Positions 20,933-28,955 of a stretch of DNA of 64,000 nucleotides are shown here, one piece after another. Each line of letters starts with the position of its first letter. Positions within the stretch are counted from its first letter, which is position 1. This stretch comes from Cutibacterium namnetense (GTDB lineage: Bacteria; Actinomycetota; Actinomycetes; Propionibacteriales; Propionibacteriaceae). Below the pieces are notes generated by a model. The model saw only the letters and a list, made by a program, of their open reading frames with translations, searched no databases and was not told where the DNA came from. The DNA lies in NCBI RefSeq assembly GCF_001642025.1, contig NZ_LWHO01000008.1:62001-126000 (forward strand), in the 5' to 3' direction. The translations under genes were made by a program, and so were the position numbers.

Positions 20933-21571
20933 ATGGCGTCGACGCCGCAACGGAGATGGGCATGGTTGCTGGTCCTCATCGTCGCATCGTTGGTGATCGT
21001 CGGGGTGTACCGCAAAGCTGTTCCACAAGAAGGGTCGACAGCCTATGGCCAGGCCGCAGCGGCTCTCAGCGACCTCCCCGTGAAGGGACGTGCGCCGATG
21101 ACCGGCTATTCGCGGGACCAATTCGGCCCGGCGTGGAGCGACAACTCCGACTCAGCCCTGACTCGTCCCTGGGGCCATAACGGTTGCGGCACCCGCGACG
21201 ACGCTTTGGCCCGCGACCTCGTCGGAGCCAAGCTAAAGTCCGGCAGCCGGTGCCGAGTCGTCTCCGGCGAATTACACGACCCTTACACGGGACGGAAAAT
21301 CGCATGGAGACGCGGTCGCGAAACTTCGGCTGTCGTGCAGATCGACCACGTCGTCGCGCTCGGAAACGCCTGGGTCACAGGTGCTCAGCAACTACCCATG
21401 GACCGGCGTCAGGCGCTAGCAAACGACCCCCTCAATCTGCTAGCCGTCGAAGGACGGGCCAACCAGAACAAGGGGGCCGGGGATGCGGTGACATGGCTGC
21501 CGCCAAACAAGTCATACCGCTGTGACTACGTATCTCGCCAGATCGCTGTCAAGCGAAAGTACCATCTCTGA
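20933..21571 (+). CDS. Exported HNH-type nuclease-like protein (DUF1524)
   Basis: 212 residues. One N-terminal hydrophobic segment (WAWLLVLIVASLVIVGVY) acts as signal or anchor. The domain has the DUF1524 pattern: VQIDHVVALGNAW with the active-site Asp-His, ANDPLNLLAVEGRANQNKG, then WLPPNKSYRC. The histidine-metal core is intact, so nuclease activity outside the membrane is plausible. AGGAAGG precedes the ATG. Divergent from tsaE and convergent with the helicase gene. Possible roles are extracellular DNA use or competition; neither is shown. Confidence 0.82.
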   Translation: MASTPQRRWAWLLVLIVASLVIVGVYRKAVPQEGSTAYGQAAAALSDLPVKGRAPMTGYSRDQFGPAWSDNSDSALTRPWGHNGCGTRDDALARDLVGAKLKSGSRCRVVSGELHDPYTGRKIAWRRGRETSAVVQIDHVVALGNAWVTGAQQLPMDRRQALANDPLNLLAVEGRANQNKGAGDAVTWLPPNKSYRCDYVSRQIAVKRKYHL

Positions 21572-21655: not shown

Positions 21656-23782
21656 TCACCAAGTGTCGTTTCCGGAGCGACCGTATTTAGCCTCAATGTC
21701 GCGGCGCTCGCGACCACGGAAATTGCGTCCGCGGGAATCATGCCCACGATCACGGTGATCACGAGAATCGTGACTGCGGGGACGACCCCCGTCAAATCCA
21801 CGCCCACCGCGGTTGTACCCGCCCTTGCCGCGACGTGGCTTCCCGTCACGGGCCTTCTTGCCACGCTGCTGCTTGGGAGCGACGAGAGCCTCATAATCCT
21901 TCTCGTCAATGGGGGCGCCCAAGGCCGGGCTGCATCCAGCCACCTCAGCGACGTGGTCGTCACCGAGCATCACCTGGGCCTCTACCGGCTTCACCCCGGC
22001 TTGACGGTACAAACGAGCCATAGTGCGACGCTGATGCGGCAAAACAAGAGAGACGACCGCCCCGTCATGCCCGGCACGCGCAGTACGACCGGACCGGTGC
22101 AGGTAATCCTTGGAGTTCATCGGCGGATCGACTTGCAACACCAGAGTGACGTCATCGACGTCAATCCCGCGGGCCGCGACGTCAGTAGCAACCAGGACCG
22201 GAAGCGAACCTTCCTTAAACGACCCCAACACGCGGGCGCGGGCGCCCTGGGTTAAGCCGCCGTGCAGAGCGCCAGCCATGACACCAGCCTCACGCATCTG
22301 CTCGGCCATTCGGGAGGCACCGCGCTGGGTTCGGGCGAAGACGATGGTGTGACCGCTACGGTTAGCGATCTCACACATCAGTCCTACCTTCTCGTGAGGC
22401 TTGATCTGGAAAGCGTGATGAGTCATCGTCGAGACCGATCCCGTATCGGAATCGACCTCGTGGGTAACCGGCTCGTGCATATAGCGTTTGACGAGCTTGT
22501 TGACAGCACCGTCGAGGGTGGCAGAGAACAGTAAGCGCTGCCCGTCTGCGGGAACAGCATCGAGGATCGCGCCAACGGCCTCCATAAATCCAAGCTCAGC
22601 CATATGGTCGGCTTCGTCGAGGACAGTCACGACGGTACCGGAAAGGTCGGCGTCACCGGTCTCCAACAGGTCAACCAGACGTCCTGGGGTGGCGACGACA
22701 AGGTCGACCCCCTTCTTGAAAGCCTTGGTCTGCGGGCCATAGCTCATACCACCCGCGATAAGGATGGTCGATAGTCCCATTGAGGAGGCCAGCGGGGATA
22801 GCACGTCAGCAATCTGCATAGCCAGCTCGCGAGTGGGAGAAAGGATGAGGGCTCGAGGCCGCTTATCCTCACGCGGGGTGGCAGACAAACGCGACAGCAG
22901 CGGGACACCGAAGGCCAACGTCTTACCCGAACCCGTCGAGGCCCGGCCCAGCACGTCACGCCCAGCGATGGCATCAGGAATAGCGGCGATCTGGATGCGG
23001 AACGGATCGGTAATGCCAGTCTTAGCCAAAGCGGCGACGATTTCGTCGGGCACACCAAGAGCCGAGAAACCGCCCTCGTGGTCGATACCGGTAACGTCGA
23101 GATCGGTTAGCTCAGTGGCCTTCCAATCCATATTGTCGGCGTCGTCGTGGCCCTCGTGGGAGAAATCGTTGCCACGATGATCCGAACGGTCTGACCATCG
23201 GCCATCCCGGCGATCGTCGCGCCAGTTGTTACGGCTTTCGCGCCGATCCTGGGAATCCCGGCGATCGAAGCCATGGCCGCCGCCACGCCTATCCCAGTGG
23301 TGGTCACGGTCGCGGCGCTGTCCACGACGGTCCTCGCGATCCCACGAGGATCCGGGACGGTCATCGCGCTTCCAGTCACGGTTGCCGTAATTTCCCGGTC
23401 GTCGCGACTTATGAGGGCGGAACTCGCCGTCATCGGACCACCGGCGGTCATCGTGACGTCCGTCGCGCCGATCCCAGTCACGTCGACGATCCGAGTCGCG
23501 GCGGTCGTAACGACGGTCATTGCGGCGATCAGACCATTCATTATGGTCGCGTCGATCTGGGGAGAAACGACGATCCTTACCACCGCCAACAGCATCGGGA
23601 CGCGCGTCTTCACGAGGGGTCCACGCCTCGAAGTTGCGACCTTGGGAATCCGTGCGCTCGGTACGGACCCCTCCCCTGGTGCGTGGCTTGTGTCCGCGAG
23701 CGGCTCGCTCAGCTGCGGTCCAACGGCGCTTCGGGGTGCCGTCAGCCTTAAAGGACTTGGAATTGCGTTTTTTGTTGCTCAA
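21656..23782 (-). CDS. DEAD-box RNA helicase with long Arg/Asp-rich N-terminal region
   Basis: 708 residues from a TTG start with an AGGGA-type site upstream. Residues 60-215 are extremely rich in Arg and Asp, in repeated DRR/RRD units, and predicted disordered. The helicase core runs from about 225 to 600: Q-motif, Walker A ASTGSGKT (281-288), VLDEADHMAELGF, FSATLDG and the C-terminal HRSGRTARAGHDG. The last 60 residues are an RG-rich tail. It unwinds structured RNA, perhaps in ribosome assembly or cold response, as for DeaD/RhlE relatives. Single gene. Confidence 0.9.
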   Translation of the reverse strand: MSNKKRNSKSFKADGTPKRRWTAAERAARGHKPRTRGGVRTERTDSQGRNFEAWTPREDARPDAVGGGKDRRFSPDRRDHNEWSDRRNDRRYDRRDSDRRRDWDRRDGRHDDRRWSDDGEFRPHKSRRPGNYGNRDWKRDDRPGSSWDREDRRGQRRDRDHHWDRRGGGHGFDRRDSQDRRESRNNWRDDRRDGRWSDRSDHRGNDFSHEGHDDADNMDWKATELTDLDVTGIDHEGGFSALGVPDEIVAALAKTGITDPFRIQIAAIPDAIAGRDVLGRASTGSGKTLAFGVPLLSRLSATPREDKRPRALILSPTRELAMQIADVLSPLASSMGLSTILIAGGMSYGPQTKAFKKGVDLVVATPGRLVDLLETGDADLSGTVVTVLDEADHMAELGFMEAVGAILDAVPADGQRLLFSATLDGAVNKLVKRYMHEPVTHEVDSDTGSVSTMTHHAFQIKPHEKVGLMCEIANRSGHTIVFARTQRGASRMAEQMREAGVMAGALHGGLTQGARARVLGSFKEGSLPVLVATDVAARGIDVDDVTLVLQVDPPMNSKDYLHRSGRTARAGHDGAVVSLVLPHQRRTMARLYRQAGVKPVEAQVMLGDDHVAEVAGCSPALGAPIDEKDYEALVAPKQQRGKKARDGKPRRGKGGYNRGGRGFDGGRPRSHDSRDHRDRGHDSRGRNFRGRERRDIEAKYGRSGNDTW

Positions 23783-24136
23783 TGGGGTCTTCCCTCATGA
23801 TCAGCGGACTCCTCGGCCAGGGGCGACCTACACCACCGCGCGCAAAAAGGCGCAGTGTCACTGCACGGGGTCGCGGAATCTAACCGCAGCACGTCGGACC
23901 CAAAGCGGGTCTCGGTGATGGAATCCTGGATGGCTGTCTGTCTCGATGGCTGGGCGAATAGCTGCTGTGCAGGTGAATGCAGTGAAACCGGAGCCGGTGA
24001 CCCCGCCATGCCCTGAGGGCACATCGAGCAACTGAAACGCATCATAGGCTCGAACGAATCGAGCCGTTGCCAACGCGGGTACTCTACGCCAACCAGGCGA
24101 CATTGGCGAAATCGACCACATTCCCGAAGGAACGAG
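23783..24136. other. Interval without a recognised gene
   Basis: 354 bases between the helicase start and the permease stop. A minus-strand open frame (23858-24121, 87 codons) crosses it but has no recognisable domain and no clear ribosome site. The interval must hold the helicase promoter and perhaps the end of the permease transcript. Confidence 0.5.
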
Positions 24137-26476
24137 CTAGTCGCTGATAGTCGTGTTCCACGAGTAGGGACGGTGGATGGCGGCCCCAATAACCGAACCG
24201 ACCATGACCGATCCTGCAAGCGCAGCCAGAACCCACCATCCGCCGTGGACCAAGTCCATGGTGCCGGGCATGATTCGGCTCGTAGCCAGCAGGGCGAGCA
24301 GCGACCCCACAATGCCAGCGACCACCGCGACGACACACGTCATGGCGACCTCGAAGAAGATCACACTGTCGACCCAGCGCGGTGTTAGTCCGAGGCGTCG
24401 CAGGTACGCAGTGAGTCGCCTCTGAGCCAAGCGCTCGTCTCGGGCCAGGGAACCAATCATGATGATCGTGATAATGGTGAACAGCCCGGTAGCCACGAGG
24501 GTCGCCGTGGGCAGGGGAACCTTGGGTGCGATTCGTGGAGCCATGACATAAGAGGGGTCGATGCGGTGTGTCGTGGCCCAGTGGTAGGCGATGTCCTCCT
24601 GGTTTGGGCTCAGACCGACATATAGGAACCCTTTACTCACCGACGAGCCACTTGGCTTAGCTGGTGAGGCATCCCCATGCCCGATGACCTTAATCTGCCC
24701 AAGCCAGCCAAGATCTCGCGGCACGGTGATATCGGTGTTGGGAGCTTGCTCATCGGTGGTGACCCGCAGGCTTCCGGCCGCTTGCAACTGACGACGCTGA
24801 CCATCAGTCAGGGGGAAAATACTGGCGACGTCGTCGACGTCATGAAAGGCCCACCACGCCACAGAATTGCCAGTGCGGTCGTTGCTGGAACCATATGCCA
24901 TCGGCACCTTGCGGGCACCATGCAAGTCATCGTCGAACTGTGTGACGAGGTTGCCAGGCAGACGGGGGGAGAACCCCGGCTCTGTCAGGAAGTAGGCCAT
25001 ACCGTGCGGGATACCTGTGGAACTGGTGGCGTTCATCTGTGCGAACAGTGAGGCAACAATAAGCAGACCTGTAGCAGTAGCAGCAATGAGACCTGCTGTA
25101 AGTCCAGCGAACAGTCCGTGCCATGACCCCCGGCGGCGAAGGGCACGAGACGCGGCCAGCCTACGGCCGGGTGGGACTTCGCGTCCTGAGACCAAGGTCA
25201 GTAACCACGGTGCCACCAGTCCTGCCGCCAACGACGAGGCCACGGAAACAATGGCCACCGAAATCAGCGAGGCTTTCGCTGCCGCTGAAGCCCATACCAA
25301 GAGGGCGCAGGCAACGATGGCGCCGCCCCAAGCCAACAGACGGGCCATTTTCACATTGATGCGTGTGCCATGAACCTTGCGTTCCCGCTGACTGCTCGGG
25401 GTCGCCATGACGACGGCGGTCAAGACGGCGGCAACCAGGCAGGTGAGGGCGCTAATAGTAGGCAATGAGATAGGCGAGAGTGGGTTATCGGAGAAACGGG
25501 CCAGCAGTGGCCGAATAGCTATGACAAGCAGCTCGCCGGCGACGAGGCTTGCTGCCGCAGTGGCGACGCTCATGAACAAGGTGATGACTCGCAGCGACAG
25601 AGCCAGTTTGCGGCGCGGCACACCCATAGCAGTAAGGGGCGCGATGATTCGGCGTGCCGACGTCGTAGCGGCCGCAGCAGCCAAACCAGCTCCCAAACCG
25701 GCGACGAGGAACCACGCCAGATACTGCTCGACGATCTTCTTCCCAGATAGCGGTGCAGATTCTTTGGAGAGGAGCTGATTCCTGGTCGTACATGCATCAG
25801 AATCGACAGGATCAGAGCCCAAATCGTCATTAATCTTACTGCACGTGGCAGCTGGATCAGACGAGGTGAAGAAAACAAGAAGGTTTCCACTCACCCCGGA
25901 TATTTTGGCCTGTTTCTGAGTCAGGGGCCACGCCTGCCATGTTCCAGGATGAGCCAGGATCTCGCGAGATGATTTATCAAACGTTGCTCCAACCGTCCCA
26001 ACGATAGAAAGACGATAGTCCCCGGGTTCCAGGATAAGATTTTTTCTGCCACTAATCTCTTGCCTCAAGGATGAGTTAATAACCACTTCAGAGGACTTCG
26101 TAGGCCATCTTCCCGAGATTAGATTATATTTTCCCTCAGTATGTGCGCCCGGCACGCTAGATTCCTGATAGTGCACCTCCTCAGGAAAACCCTTCACGGA
26201 AACTTGAGTTTCAAGATATGGCGTGGCTTGGCGGACATTCCACCGATGAATGGGCAGGGTAGGAGATGATGATCCAGCAAATATCGAAAACCCCGGACTT
26301 ACCAAGCCATCGGCTGCCCCGAGCGTCGATTTCACCGATTGTTCCGAACTCAGGCTGATGGAACGATTTACTCCAAGGCTAACGGTCATGATGAGTAAAG
26401 CAGTAGCCAACGGAATCATGCGCAACCAGCTTTTCCGAGAGCGCAACACCAAAGCAGCTAGATTCCACATCCACAT
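24137..26476 (-). CDS. MacB/FtsX-like ABC transporter permease
   Basis: 779 residues. An N-terminal helix is followed by a large extracytoplasmic region of about 220 residues. Then comes a group of helices (AWFLVAGLGAGLAAAAATTS onward), a second extracytoplasmic region of about 160 residues, and a final group of three helices. This is the doubled FtsX layout of exporters that move lipoproteins, peptides or signals. The 5' third is clearly lower in GC than the flanks. ATG 26476 overlaps the ATPase stop. With the ATPase and the small secreted protein upstream it forms a three-gene unit; the layout recalls bacteriocin-associated exporters such as those of lactococcin 972, but no sequence link is claimed. 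Confidence 0.75.
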   Translation of the reverse strand: MWMWNLAALVLRSRKSWLRMIPLATALLIMTVSLGVNRSISLSSEQSVKSTLGAADGLVSPGFSIFAGSSSPTLPIHRWNVRQATPYLETQVSVKGFPEEVHYQESSVPGAHTEGKYNLISGRWPTKSSEVVINSSLRQEISGRKNLILEPGDYRLSIVGTVGATFDKSSREILAHPGTWQAWPLTQKQAKISGVSGNLLVFFTSSDPAATCSKINDDLGSDPVDSDACTTRNQLLSKESAPLSGKKIVEQYLAWFLVAGLGAGLAAAAATTSARRIIAPLTAMGVPRRKLALSLRVITLFMSVATAAASLVAGELLVIAIRPLLARFSDNPLSPISLPTISALTCLVAAVLTAVVMATPSSQRERKVHGTRINVKMARLLAWGGAIVACALLVWASAAAKASLISVAIVSVASSLAAGLVAPWLLTLVSGREVPPGRRLAASRALRRRGSWHGLFAGLTAGLIAATATGLLIVASLFAQMNATSSTGIPHGMAYFLTEPGFSPRLPGNLVTQFDDDLHGARKVPMAYGSSNDRTGNSVAWWAFHDVDDVASIFPLTDGQRRQLQAAGSLRVTTDEQAPNTDITVPRDLGWLGQIKVIGHGDASPAKPSGSSVSKGFLYVGLSPNQEDIAYHWATTHRIDPSYVMAPRIAPKVPLPTATLVATGLFTIITIIMIGSLARDERLAQRRLTAYLRRLGLTPRWVDSVIFFEVAMTCVVAVVAGIVGSLLALLATSRIMPGTMDLVHGGWWVLAALAGSVMVGSVIGAAIHRPYSWNTTISD

Positions 26477-27168
26477 CAGTGGACGCCCTCCAGGTGGCCG
26501 TCAACCAATTCGCAGGATCGGTGCGCATACTCCTTGGCAGTAGGGTCATGAGAAGAGAGCACGACGGTGCGACCCTCGCCATCCTCAGCAAGTTCGCGCA
26601 GCAGCTCGAAGACCAGCTGGGAATTGCGCCGATCGAGCTGACCGGTTGGCTCGTCGGCCAACAGAATCGCGCGATCTCCAGCGATGGCGCGGGCTATCCC
26701 GACCCGTTGGGCCTCACCCCCGGATAGTTGTCGAGGATAGCGACCCTGGAGGTGGGCGATCCCAACCCGTTCGAGAGCCTCGGTCGCCATAGTGCGGGAA
26801 CGAGAGCCGAATCCACGCACCCGAAGGATGAGTTCAACATTCTCCCGCGCCGTGAAATCGGCGATGAGGGAGTGCTCTTGGAAGATCATTCCGATTCGAT
26901 TAAGGCGCATATCGTCACGCTCGGGCGTCGACAGGGAATAAATGTCGCTCCCTTCAACGAACACCGTGCCCGACGTCGGCCTCAATAGCCCCGACACGAT
27001 GTTGAGCAATGTCGTCTTCCCTGATCCGCTCACGCCATGTAGCAGGGTCATTACCCCCGGCGGCATGGAGACGGTAACATCGTCCAGGGCGAGATTGCGA
27101 TTGTGCGCGGTCGAGAAATTATGGGACACCCCAGATATCCTGATGACCTCACCGCCAGCAGCTACCAT
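26476..27168 (-). CDS. ABC transporter ATPase (LolD/MacB type)
   Basis: About 230 residues from ATG 27168. Walker A HGVSGSGKTTLLNIVSGLL, signature RQLSGGEAQRVGIARAI, Walker B ILLADEPTGQLD and H-loop SSHDP are intact. The DEPTGQLD form is usual for the LolD/MacB group that works with FtsX-like permeases. The frame opens up to 27336, but earlier starts overlap the small secreted-protein gene; TAAGG lies about 10 bases before the chosen ATG. It powers the downstream permease. Confidence 0.85.
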   Translation of the reverse strand: MVAAGGEVIRISGVSHNFSTAHNRNLALDDVTVSMPPGVMTLLHGVSGSGKTTLLNIVSGLLRPTSGTVFVEGSDIYSLSTPERDDMRLNRIGMIFQEHSLIADFTARENVELILRVRGFGSRSRTMATEALERVGIAHLQGRYPRQLSGGEAQRVGIARAIAGDRAILLADEPTGQLDRRNSQLVFELLRELAEDGEGRTVVLSSHDPTAKEYAHRSCELVDGHLEGVH

Positions 27169-27220
27169 CTTTCCATTGACCTTACTGTTGACGGCGATGT
27201 GACTCGGGGAGAAAGCCGAC

Positions 27221-27571
27221 TCAACACCCGCGCCCCAAGGCAAAGGATGATGCTTGATTGTCGTCATACCACCAGAAATAGGGGTCATTCGTATGAGGAG
27301 CATAATCCCAGCAATGACCTCGCTGATTTGCATCATACCAAAATGCAGCCGACCAGTTCGTCTGGTTCTTAACCGAACTTAGGGCATCATTGTTGCCTCG
27401 ACTTATATTCCAACTTCCAGTCGTTGTTCGATATCCGATACGCGCCTTGTAATGCGGATCAGCGAACAATTCAAGAGAACCGGAATGAGCCGCAGGGGCC
27501 GCAACGGCAAAGCTTCCCCCTAACATGGCAGCGAGAACTCCTGCACTCACTAATTTGGACAATCGAATCAT
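27221..27571 (-). CDS. Small secreted beta/gamma-crystallin-like protein
   Basis: 116 residues from ATG 27571, with GAGGAG 6 bases upstream. Residues 1-28 are a Sec signal (MIRLSKLVSAGVLAAMLGGS, then AVAAPAA). The mature part of about 88 residues has two Greek-key-like halves. Each half carries the [DN][DN]xx[ST]S calcium-clamp motif of beta/gamma-crystallins: NDALSS at 61-66 and DNQASS at 104-109. FWYDANQRG fits the aromatic-x6-Gly element. Two cysteines (87, 116) could form a disulfide. The fold resembles the secreted peptidase-inhibitor I36 group. It is the first gene of a unit with an ABC ATPase and a MacB-like permease. Function unknown: inhibitor, bacteriocin or signal are all possible. 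Confidence 0.6.
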   Translation of the reverse strand: MIRLSKLVSAGVLAAMLGGSFAVAAPAAHSGSLELFADPHYKARIGYRTTTGSWNISRGNNDALSSVKNQTNWSAAFWYDANQRGHCWDYAPHTNDPYFWWYDDNQASSFALGRGC

Positions 27572-27815
27572 AACGACTCCTCGTTGAGTAAGTTTTTGAG
27601 CCATCCGCAATCTGTCGACCACTTGGCGTCAGCATATCCTACATATATCTGGCGGGGCGGGGACAACAAGGCTCGCACACAGCCCCCGCAAGTGGTGGGG
27701 TGGCGCACCTCGGACATCTTTGCCCACCAACCGCAGGTGATCTCGTTGCTCCACGTTCACCACTACGACACCGCAACCCCACCAAGGCGTCGTATGTCCC
27801 GGCTACCATGAAATT

Positions 27816-28955
27816 GTGCGTGTTGCGATCATCACTGAGTCATTCCTCCCCCTGGTCAATGGAGTGACGAACTCGGTGCTGCGGATTCTGGAGCACCTAC
27901 GGCGTCACGGCCATGAGGCCCTCGTGCTCGCCCCCGGTGATGCCCAGACGCCGCGCGAGTACGCCGGATTCCCCGTCATTCCACTAGCCTCCCTGCACTG
28001 GCCGGGCTACCAAGACGTACGTGTCTCCACCAGCCCGCAGTGGACGATGGAGCGTTACCTGTCAGAGTTCGAGCCTGACGTCGTGCATCTGGCTGGGCCA
28101 TTCATGATTGGGTACAAGGGCGCCATGGCGGCAGCCTCCCTCGGTATACCCATAGTGGCGATTTATCAGACCGACATCCCGTCCTACGCAGGCCGCTATG
28201 GACTCGGCAAGCTCGAGTTCTACGGCTGGTACCGCGTGCGTCAAATCCACTCCCTCGCTGTGGCGACCTACGCACCCTCCACCTTCTCTCGTGACCAACT
28301 CGTCAGCCATGGCGTACCTCGGGTGGGCATCTGGGGACGCGGCGTTGACAAAGTGCGATTCCACCCGTCGAAGCGCTCTCAGCAGCTGCACGACGAATGG
28401 GCTCCCAACGGCGAGGTGGTCGTCGGGTATATGGGGCGTCTAGCTGCCGAGAAACGGGTCGCCGATATGGCCAACCTCGCCGACATCCCTCACACCCGGC
28501 TCGTCATCGTCGGAAATGGTCCAGCTCGCGCCGAGGTGGAAAAGCAGCTTCCTCATGCCATTTTCACCGGCGGTCTCGGCGGGGAGGATCTTCCCCGCGC
28601 CGTCGCCAGCATGGACGTATTCTGCGCGACAGGCGAGCTGGAAACCTTCTGCCAGGCCGTTCAAGAAGCTAAGGCTTGTGGCGTCCCGGTCATTAGTCCA
28701 CGCAAGGGCGGTCCCATCGACCTCATTGACCCGTCTCGCACTGGATGGCTTTATGAGGCCGGGGACATGACAGACTTCCGCTCACGCGTCGTCGATCTCG
28801 TCGGTGACGACTACAAGCGGCGCGCCATGGGTGTGGCGGCACGAGCCTCGATCGAGAATCGCACCTGGGAGAACCTGTGCAGCGAACTCGTCGAACATTA
28901 TGAAGAAGCAATCCGGCTAGCCGGGCGCTCAACGAGGATTCGTGCCACCCTCTGA
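27816..28955 (+). CDS. GT4 glycosyltransferase, probable GDP-mannose-dependent mannosyltransferase
   Basis: 379 residues with a GT-B fold. The N-terminus ITESFLPLVNGVTNSVLR and the C-terminal ELETFCQAVQEAKACGVPVI (E-x7-E donor site) are those of GT4 enzymes related to MgtA/PimB mannosyltransferases. It is cytoplasmic or membrane-associated and probably builds mannosylated glycolipids. The start is GTG 27816. It is convergent with the NAD(P)HX repair gene. Confidence 0.82.
   Translation: MRVAIITESFLPLVNGVTNSVLRILEHLRRHGHEALVLAPGDAQTPREYAGFPVIPLASLHWPGYQDVRVSTSPQWTMERYLSEFEPDVVHLAGPFMIGYKGAMAAASLGIPIVAIYQTDIPSYAGRYGLGKLEFYGWYRVRQIHSLAVATYAPSTFSRDQLVSHGVPRVGIWGRGVDKVRFHPSKRSQQLHDEWAPNGEVVVGYMGRLAAEKRVADMANLADIPHTRLVIVGNGPARAEVEKQLPHAIFTGGLGGEDLPRAVASMDVFCATGELETFCQAVQEAKACGVPVISPRKGGPIDLIDPSRTGWLYEAGDMTDFRSRVVDLVGDDYKRRAMGVAARASIENRTWENLCSELVEHYEEAIRLAGRSTRIRATL

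Follow-up and report, generated by a model that had tools for sequence, protein, structure and literature searches.

Why would the gene of a small secreted protein with two calcium-clamp motifs be followed directly by those of an ATP-binding cassette (ABC) transporter? The question is raised by three genes of Cutibacterium namnetense (genome G000, contig 19), within a stretch of 64,000 nt (contig NZ_LWHO01000008.1, positions 62,001–126,000) that was analyzed as a whole and is here called the window, the numbering of which is used throughout. On its minus strand, from 27571 to 24137, lie in tight succession the genes for a βγ-crystallin-like peptide of 116 residues (27221–27571, with an AGGAG Shine-Dalgarno sequence just 5' of the ATG), an ATPase (26476–27168), and an FtsX-like permease of 779 residues (24137–26476). 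An earlier note on this DNA had described such a same-strand unit, and open reading frames, Pfam matches, and conserved gene neighborhoods all agree with it. In related loci, the peptide has repeatedly been switched off or lost, while the pump, of a type that often serves to remove toxins, was kept. This suggests an antagonistic peptide of a hitherto undescribed type that comes with its own protection.

At the N terminus of the peptide is a Sec-type signal sequence (approximately residues 1–28; 27488–27571), recognized by its basic start, hydrophobic core, and Ala-rich end near APAAHS. The mature part (27224–27487) is a domain of 88 residues with two Cys and the motifs NDALSS (mature residues 33–38; 27374–27391), in the position of the first clamp of microbial βγ-crystallins, and DNQASS (mature residues 76–81; 27245–27262). 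An AlphaFold2 model built from an alignment of 12 mature peptides showed eight strands, with a predicted local distance difference test score (pLDDT) of 88, and among Protein Data Bank structures it matched 3hzb (Z 12.8 over 81 residues) and clostrillin (Z 12.6), the latter also being matched by the sequence profile (7.8e-6). With good confidence, the mature peptide is predicted to be a two-Greek-key βγ-crystallin domain. Thus the secretion, the crystallin (I36-like) fold, and the two calcium clamps proposed in the earlier note have all held up, both clamps being in place in the predicted fold. Most relatives of the peptide also carry both clamps, while some carry one or none. At locus A, the mature peptide is under purifying selection, with a ratio of nonsynonymous to synonymous divergence of 0.07–0.11. 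Weak profile matches to one very large toxin-complex protein (E 0.007–0.11) were judged to reflect chance or a shared local motif.

The predicted two-Greek-key fold and the two [ND][ND]xx[ST]S clamps are held in common with the microbial βγ-crystallins clostrillin (3i9h, 3so1), flavollin (3hzb), and hahellin (2kp5), from which the window protein differs in being a secreted single domain with a conserved Cys pair, encoded in an operon with an ABC transporter. Antimicrobial proteins of the same fold class exist—the yeast killer toxin WmKT and the Streptomyces protein SKLP are examples—and the plant protein MiAMP1 (1c01) was among the structure-search matches of the peptide. To our knowledge, none of the crystallin-fold antimicrobial proteins is paired with ABC self-protection.

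In Pfam, the only family matched by the window peptide is PF03995, the peptidase inhibitor family I36, which includes the Streptomyces metalloproteinase inhibitor SMPI. The members of this family are secreted and of similar size, and 11 of the 12 family members studied here matched the profile (E up to 1; best 1.2e-10). A secreted peptidase inhibitor or host-interaction protein, with the ABC pair as a neighbor of separate role, is therefore one explanation of the locus. The window protein itself, with E 0.00078, scored 19.8–20.0 bits when searched alone, under the Pfam gathering score of 21.1, and 21.3 bits in a search of genome frames. The gene neighborhoods also speak against this explanation. 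In a profile survey of 197 Propionibacteriaceae genomes, where strong relatives were those with E up to 1e-20, a LolD-type ATPase and FtsX-like permease pair lay directly downstream on the same strand in 16/16 strong relatives, even at about 30% identity, whereas a comparable ABC unit was found beside none of the 33 other I36 or crystallin proteins (Fisher p about 3e-13 by hand; a table of 17 versus 33 gave 1e-13). Only one of the 33 had an ATPase nearby, an unrelated one on the opposite strand, beside a permease of the iron-uptake kind. As none of the generic I36 proteins had an ABC pair beside it, the pairing is a property of this group and no effect of neighborhood; a generic I36 neighborhood was rejected as its explanation, and we consider the inhibitor or host-interaction role decidedly unlikely. 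The association of peptide and ABC pair, whose co-occurrence the earlier note had left to a neighborhood search, is far beyond chance, and the three genes are a real unit. Neither of the two results named in that note as refuting, a fold other than crystallin or a failure of the homologues to co-occur with the ABC pair, was observed. Others of the I36 proteins (at L107 and L108) adjoin a lipoprotein-like gene (MKQSSMMP... and a relative) and possibly mark a second, different crystallin gene set.

The unit occurs across the family Propionibacteriaceae. A scan of genome contigs gave five named loci, and in one genome (G003) three different cassettes occupy three places. No further genome with the peptide was found at 1e-6 in a sample of 396 genomes of the phylum, and the class-level matches were few, weak, and without such an ABC unit. 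The peptide was also unmatched in 72,556 plasmids and 50,697 phages, and an origin from either was rejected on this ground. In G031, G415, G422, and G049, the ABC pair has relatives ahead of which no crystallin peptide was detected; loci L088, L089, L090, and L096 are of this kind. Across 12 loci, the distances of peptide and permease are correlated (r 0.68, Mantel p 5e-5). A literature search on crystallin or I36 proteins together with bacteriocins returned nothing relevant, subscription papers lying outside it, so that novelty in print is unproven.

What, then, is the transporter? The ATPase is of the LolD/FtsE/MacB type (PF00005, 1.4e-32), with the Walker A motif GVSGSGKT, the signature LSGGE, and DEPT. 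Its start is most likely at 27168, although an earlier GTG at 27228 is possible, and its stop (26476–26478) is overlapped by the ATG of the permease. The latter matched PF02687 (FtsX) above the cut-off in two stretches, and in its AlphaFold2 model (pLDDT 74) ten helices cross the membrane. The outer domains (approximately residues 43–243 and 485–655) are inserted between helices 1–2 and 7–8, which is also the topology of YbbP (PMC12646458). In Foldseek, the best match was Escherichia coli YbbP (9ge7/9ge6, 3.2e-13), followed by MacB, LolCE, HrtB, and BceAB, with sequence identities of only 11–17% in these structural matches. The permease is thus predicted by its model to be a type VII ABC protein served by a separate ATPase, with a fold closest to that of YbbP. 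Such systems work mechanically at the outer face of the membrane (PMC12646458, PMC5985334), and the known examples BceAB and YknWXYZ clear toxins or antimicrobial peptides (PMC5985334, PMC4887032).

Two known systems suggest different roles for the peptide. The cassette shares with YbbAP-TesA and BceAB the ten transmembrane helices and the separate ATPase, and its outer domains are placed as in YbbP, but the adjoining gene encodes a crystallin-like peptide instead of TesA or BceS. Extracytoplasmic partner subunits have precedents in TesA for YbbAP, EnvC for FtsEX, and LolA for LolCDE. The peptide could accordingly be the extracytoplasmic subunit of a complex that handles a lipid or another hydrophobic molecule, either removing or presenting it, as might be argued from the tight operon, from the good conservation of the peptide across genera, and from the best structural match being YbbP, the published partner of which is a secreted enzyme (PMC12646458). 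Were the peptide an obligate partner, however, the ABC genes would not be preserved in the seven loci, described below, that have lost it or carry a frameshift in it; the ABC relatives that have no detectable peptide do not agree with such a role either. We regard a partner subunit as unlikely. Alternatively, the peptide could act outside the cell as a cue that the ABC pair senses, in the way that BceAB, a self-protection system against bacitracin (PMC5985334), also senses that compound. BceAB is among the structural matches, the peptide and permease distances correlate, and an expression switchable by a poly-G run would suit a public signal. Yet BceAB depends on a two-component system (PMC5985334), and the units have no conserved histidine kinase or regulator next to them, which leaves signaling or sensing distinctly unlikely.

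In 12 loci of Cutibacterium, with one assembly per species, intact ABC frames accompany a broken or missing peptide in seven (G003-A, G000-B, G001-B, G006-B, G000-C, G007-C, and G004-D), while damage to the ABC genes was seen in two, in the permease of G007-A and the ATPase of G001-D. The signal sequence of the G007-A peptide also has two Arg in its hydrophobic core. Since the ABC genes are about nine times longer than the peptide gene, seven disruptions of the latter against two of the former depart strongly from expectation (binomial p 3e-6). Among these loci is a third type of cassette, with the ABC genes intact and the peptide degenerate or frameshifted (L149 2386–5668, on contig 2 of G000; L150 4245–7642, in G007). 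Loss of the toxin with retention of the immunity is a usual asymmetry in bacteriocin loci. The pattern agrees with a secreted effector that is costly and a transporter that is of use by itself, i.e., a toxin and its immunity, and disagrees with both a dedicated exporter and an obligate partner subunit.

The earlier note had taken the ABC pair for the exporter of the peptide, and this claim was not supported. Gene order and co-inheritance would agree with it, but because the peptide has its own Sec signal, the ABC pair is not needed for export; moreover, type VII systems act on the outside of the membrane (PMC12646458, PMC5985334), and the ABC genes persist where the peptide has been lost. We consider a dedicated exporter very improbable. 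Since the signal sequence is present and the ABC genes remain intact after loss of the peptide, self-protection fits better than export. In another known system, SDP of Bacillus, the toxin is a different, short peptide, and the protecting system YknWXYZ has an adaptor among its parts and is encoded apart from the toxin. The likeness is that an endogenous secreted toxin is countered by a MacB-type ABC system (PMC4887032), with YknWXYZ providing self-protection against SDP (PMC4887032, PMC5985334).

Does the cassette move? At locus B, where a paralogous cassette lies beside menA, nearly all 200-nt blocks are 98–100% identical between the copies of G001 (C. porci) and G003, over a stretch that starts shortly ahead of the peptide and closes with the permease, while the flanks are mostly 80–88% identical. 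Synonymous divergence (dS) is 0.02 for the permease and 0.72 for menA. Given this difference between block and flanks, the cassette at locus B crossed species recently as one block. Transfer between Cutibacterium species is, therefore, observed for the paralogous cassette. Around menA, G000 and G003 (L015 versus L014) share some 10 kb, including the cassette, at 99–100% identity, a recent interspecies exchange; the divergence of these two genomes is about 11% at the window locus, and about 10–20% just outside the 10-kb block. In the window, the peptide gene and the stretch for the first outer domain of the permease have a G + C content of 0.50, against 0.62–0.63 in the flanks. The earlier note had read this low 5' G + C content as a hint of acquisition; the lower content is real, but transfer was shown for the paralogous cassette and not for the window copy. 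At the window locus of other genomes, G001 keeps a 26-residue remnant of the permease and G008 has a remnant at another place, while no trace of the unit was seen in G002, G004, G005, and G006. The C. acnes island indel_60, in which a putative thiazolylpeptide bacteriocin accompanies two ABC genes (PMC4746626), has a similar layout but could not be matched to the cassette loci described here.

The same locus B also indicates how the peptide may be lost. The sole coding indel among its copies in G003, G000, and G001 is a poly-G run in the signal-peptide codons, of seven G in G003, where the frame is open, and of six in G000 and eight in G001, both of which are frameshifted. G006 has lost about 255 nt, beginning at this run. 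Homopolymer length that differs between near-identical copies, a mark of phase-variable genes, was thus found at locus B, whereas the window copy has only a short G5 run in its signal-peptide codons (27516–27520, CCCCC on the plus strand). The G003 orthologue of the window peptide has a 1-nt frameshift in the signal peptide, beside the G5 run. Homopolymer tracts in C. acnes were validated by Sanger sequencing in six genomes, and their variation followed clades instead of rapid switching (PMC4746626).

Taken as a whole, a secreted antagonistic peptide with ABC self-protection is the best reading of the cassette, and we give it an even chance of being correct. The peptide would be made with a Sec signal and exported through the general secretion pathway, and its released form would be an 88-residue βγ-crystallin domain, probably disulfide-bonded and calcium-stabilized, directed at the envelope of close bacterial relatives. 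Working by mechanotransmission on the outer face of the membrane, the ATPase and the ten-helix type VII permease could clear the peptide away or release its target, and so shield the producer as well as bacteria that carry only the ABC genes. Recombination would spread the cassette among species of Cutibacterium, and the peptide gene would often be turned off or deleted, through slippage or deletion at the poly-G run in the signal-peptide codons, with the ABC genes kept. We infer the killing activity, the target, the immunity function, the calcium binding, and the disulfide. The fuller proposal of a new bacteriocin class, with a βγ-crystallin fold, YbbAP/BceAB-like type VII ABC protection, cassette exchange among Cutibacterium, and switching by poly-G slippage, is a possibility that we put forward tentatively and would sooner doubt than assert.

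Several observations weigh against antagonism with self-protection. Between genera, the permease has diverged more than the peptide (for example, 78% for the peptide and 30% for the permease between G003-C and G386), which is unlike a fast-diversifying toxin and unusual for a bacteriocin. In G001-D, an intact peptide stands beside an ATPase with one in-frame stop, and outside Cutibacterium the peptide is intact at all seven loci, so that the loss pattern comes from one genus; there, with a single assembly for each species, some of the frameshifts and homopolymer lengths could be sequencing errors. In a separate check of which part of the permease diverges fastest, the two closest orthologues were 78% identical in the first outer domain and 85–90% elsewhere, a mild excess of divergence, and no part of the permease showed an excess in distant pairs.

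The earlier note had also likened the order and sizes of the genes to those of lactococcin 972 cassettes. The layout does recall them—a small Sec-secreted peptide, then a permease of about 700–800 residues and a LolD-like ATPase, in the same genera—but their peptide belongs to the unrelated family PF09683, and their order is peptide-permease-ATPase instead of peptide-ATPase-permease. PF09683 has no match in the window genome; real lactococcin 972 peptides occur in the same genera, followed by a TIGR01654-like permease and then the ATPase. No match of the window permease to the TIGR01654 model was found, and profile-profile comparison (hhalign) of window-type permeases with lactococcin 972 permeases of the same family gave a probability of 0.3%. 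On the window ATPase, TIGR03608 scored 157 bits against a cut-off of 254.85, and the FtsE, LolD, and DevA models scored higher; the lactococcin 972 ATPase of G002 is also below that cut-off, yet TIGR03608 is its top model. With peptide, permease, ATPase subfamily, and gene order all differing, membership in the lactococcin 972 group was rejected. Lactococcin 972 loci of Cutibacterium include L156, L155, L159, and L160, and their permease frame is apparently in pieces in G003 (L156) and G007 (L159).

No sigma-70-like promoter was found in 23780–27850, and terminator-like sites in this region barely exceeded those of shuffled sequence. Two genes away from the unit, on the plus strand (20936–21571), lies a gene for a probably secreted nuclease-like protein of 211 residues with a GmrSD C-terminal domain (PF07510, 3.6e-15).

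βγ-crystallins are common in bacteria, but we know of few with a known role, and an operon in which one stands beside a type VII ABC transporter offers a function that can be tested. If the peptide is indeed a bacteriocin, it would be a new peptide fold in antagonism among skin and dairy propionibacteria, and would account for a family of orphan FtsX-like transporters. The cassette would then also be a natural case of toxin loss with retention of immunity, with possible phase variation.

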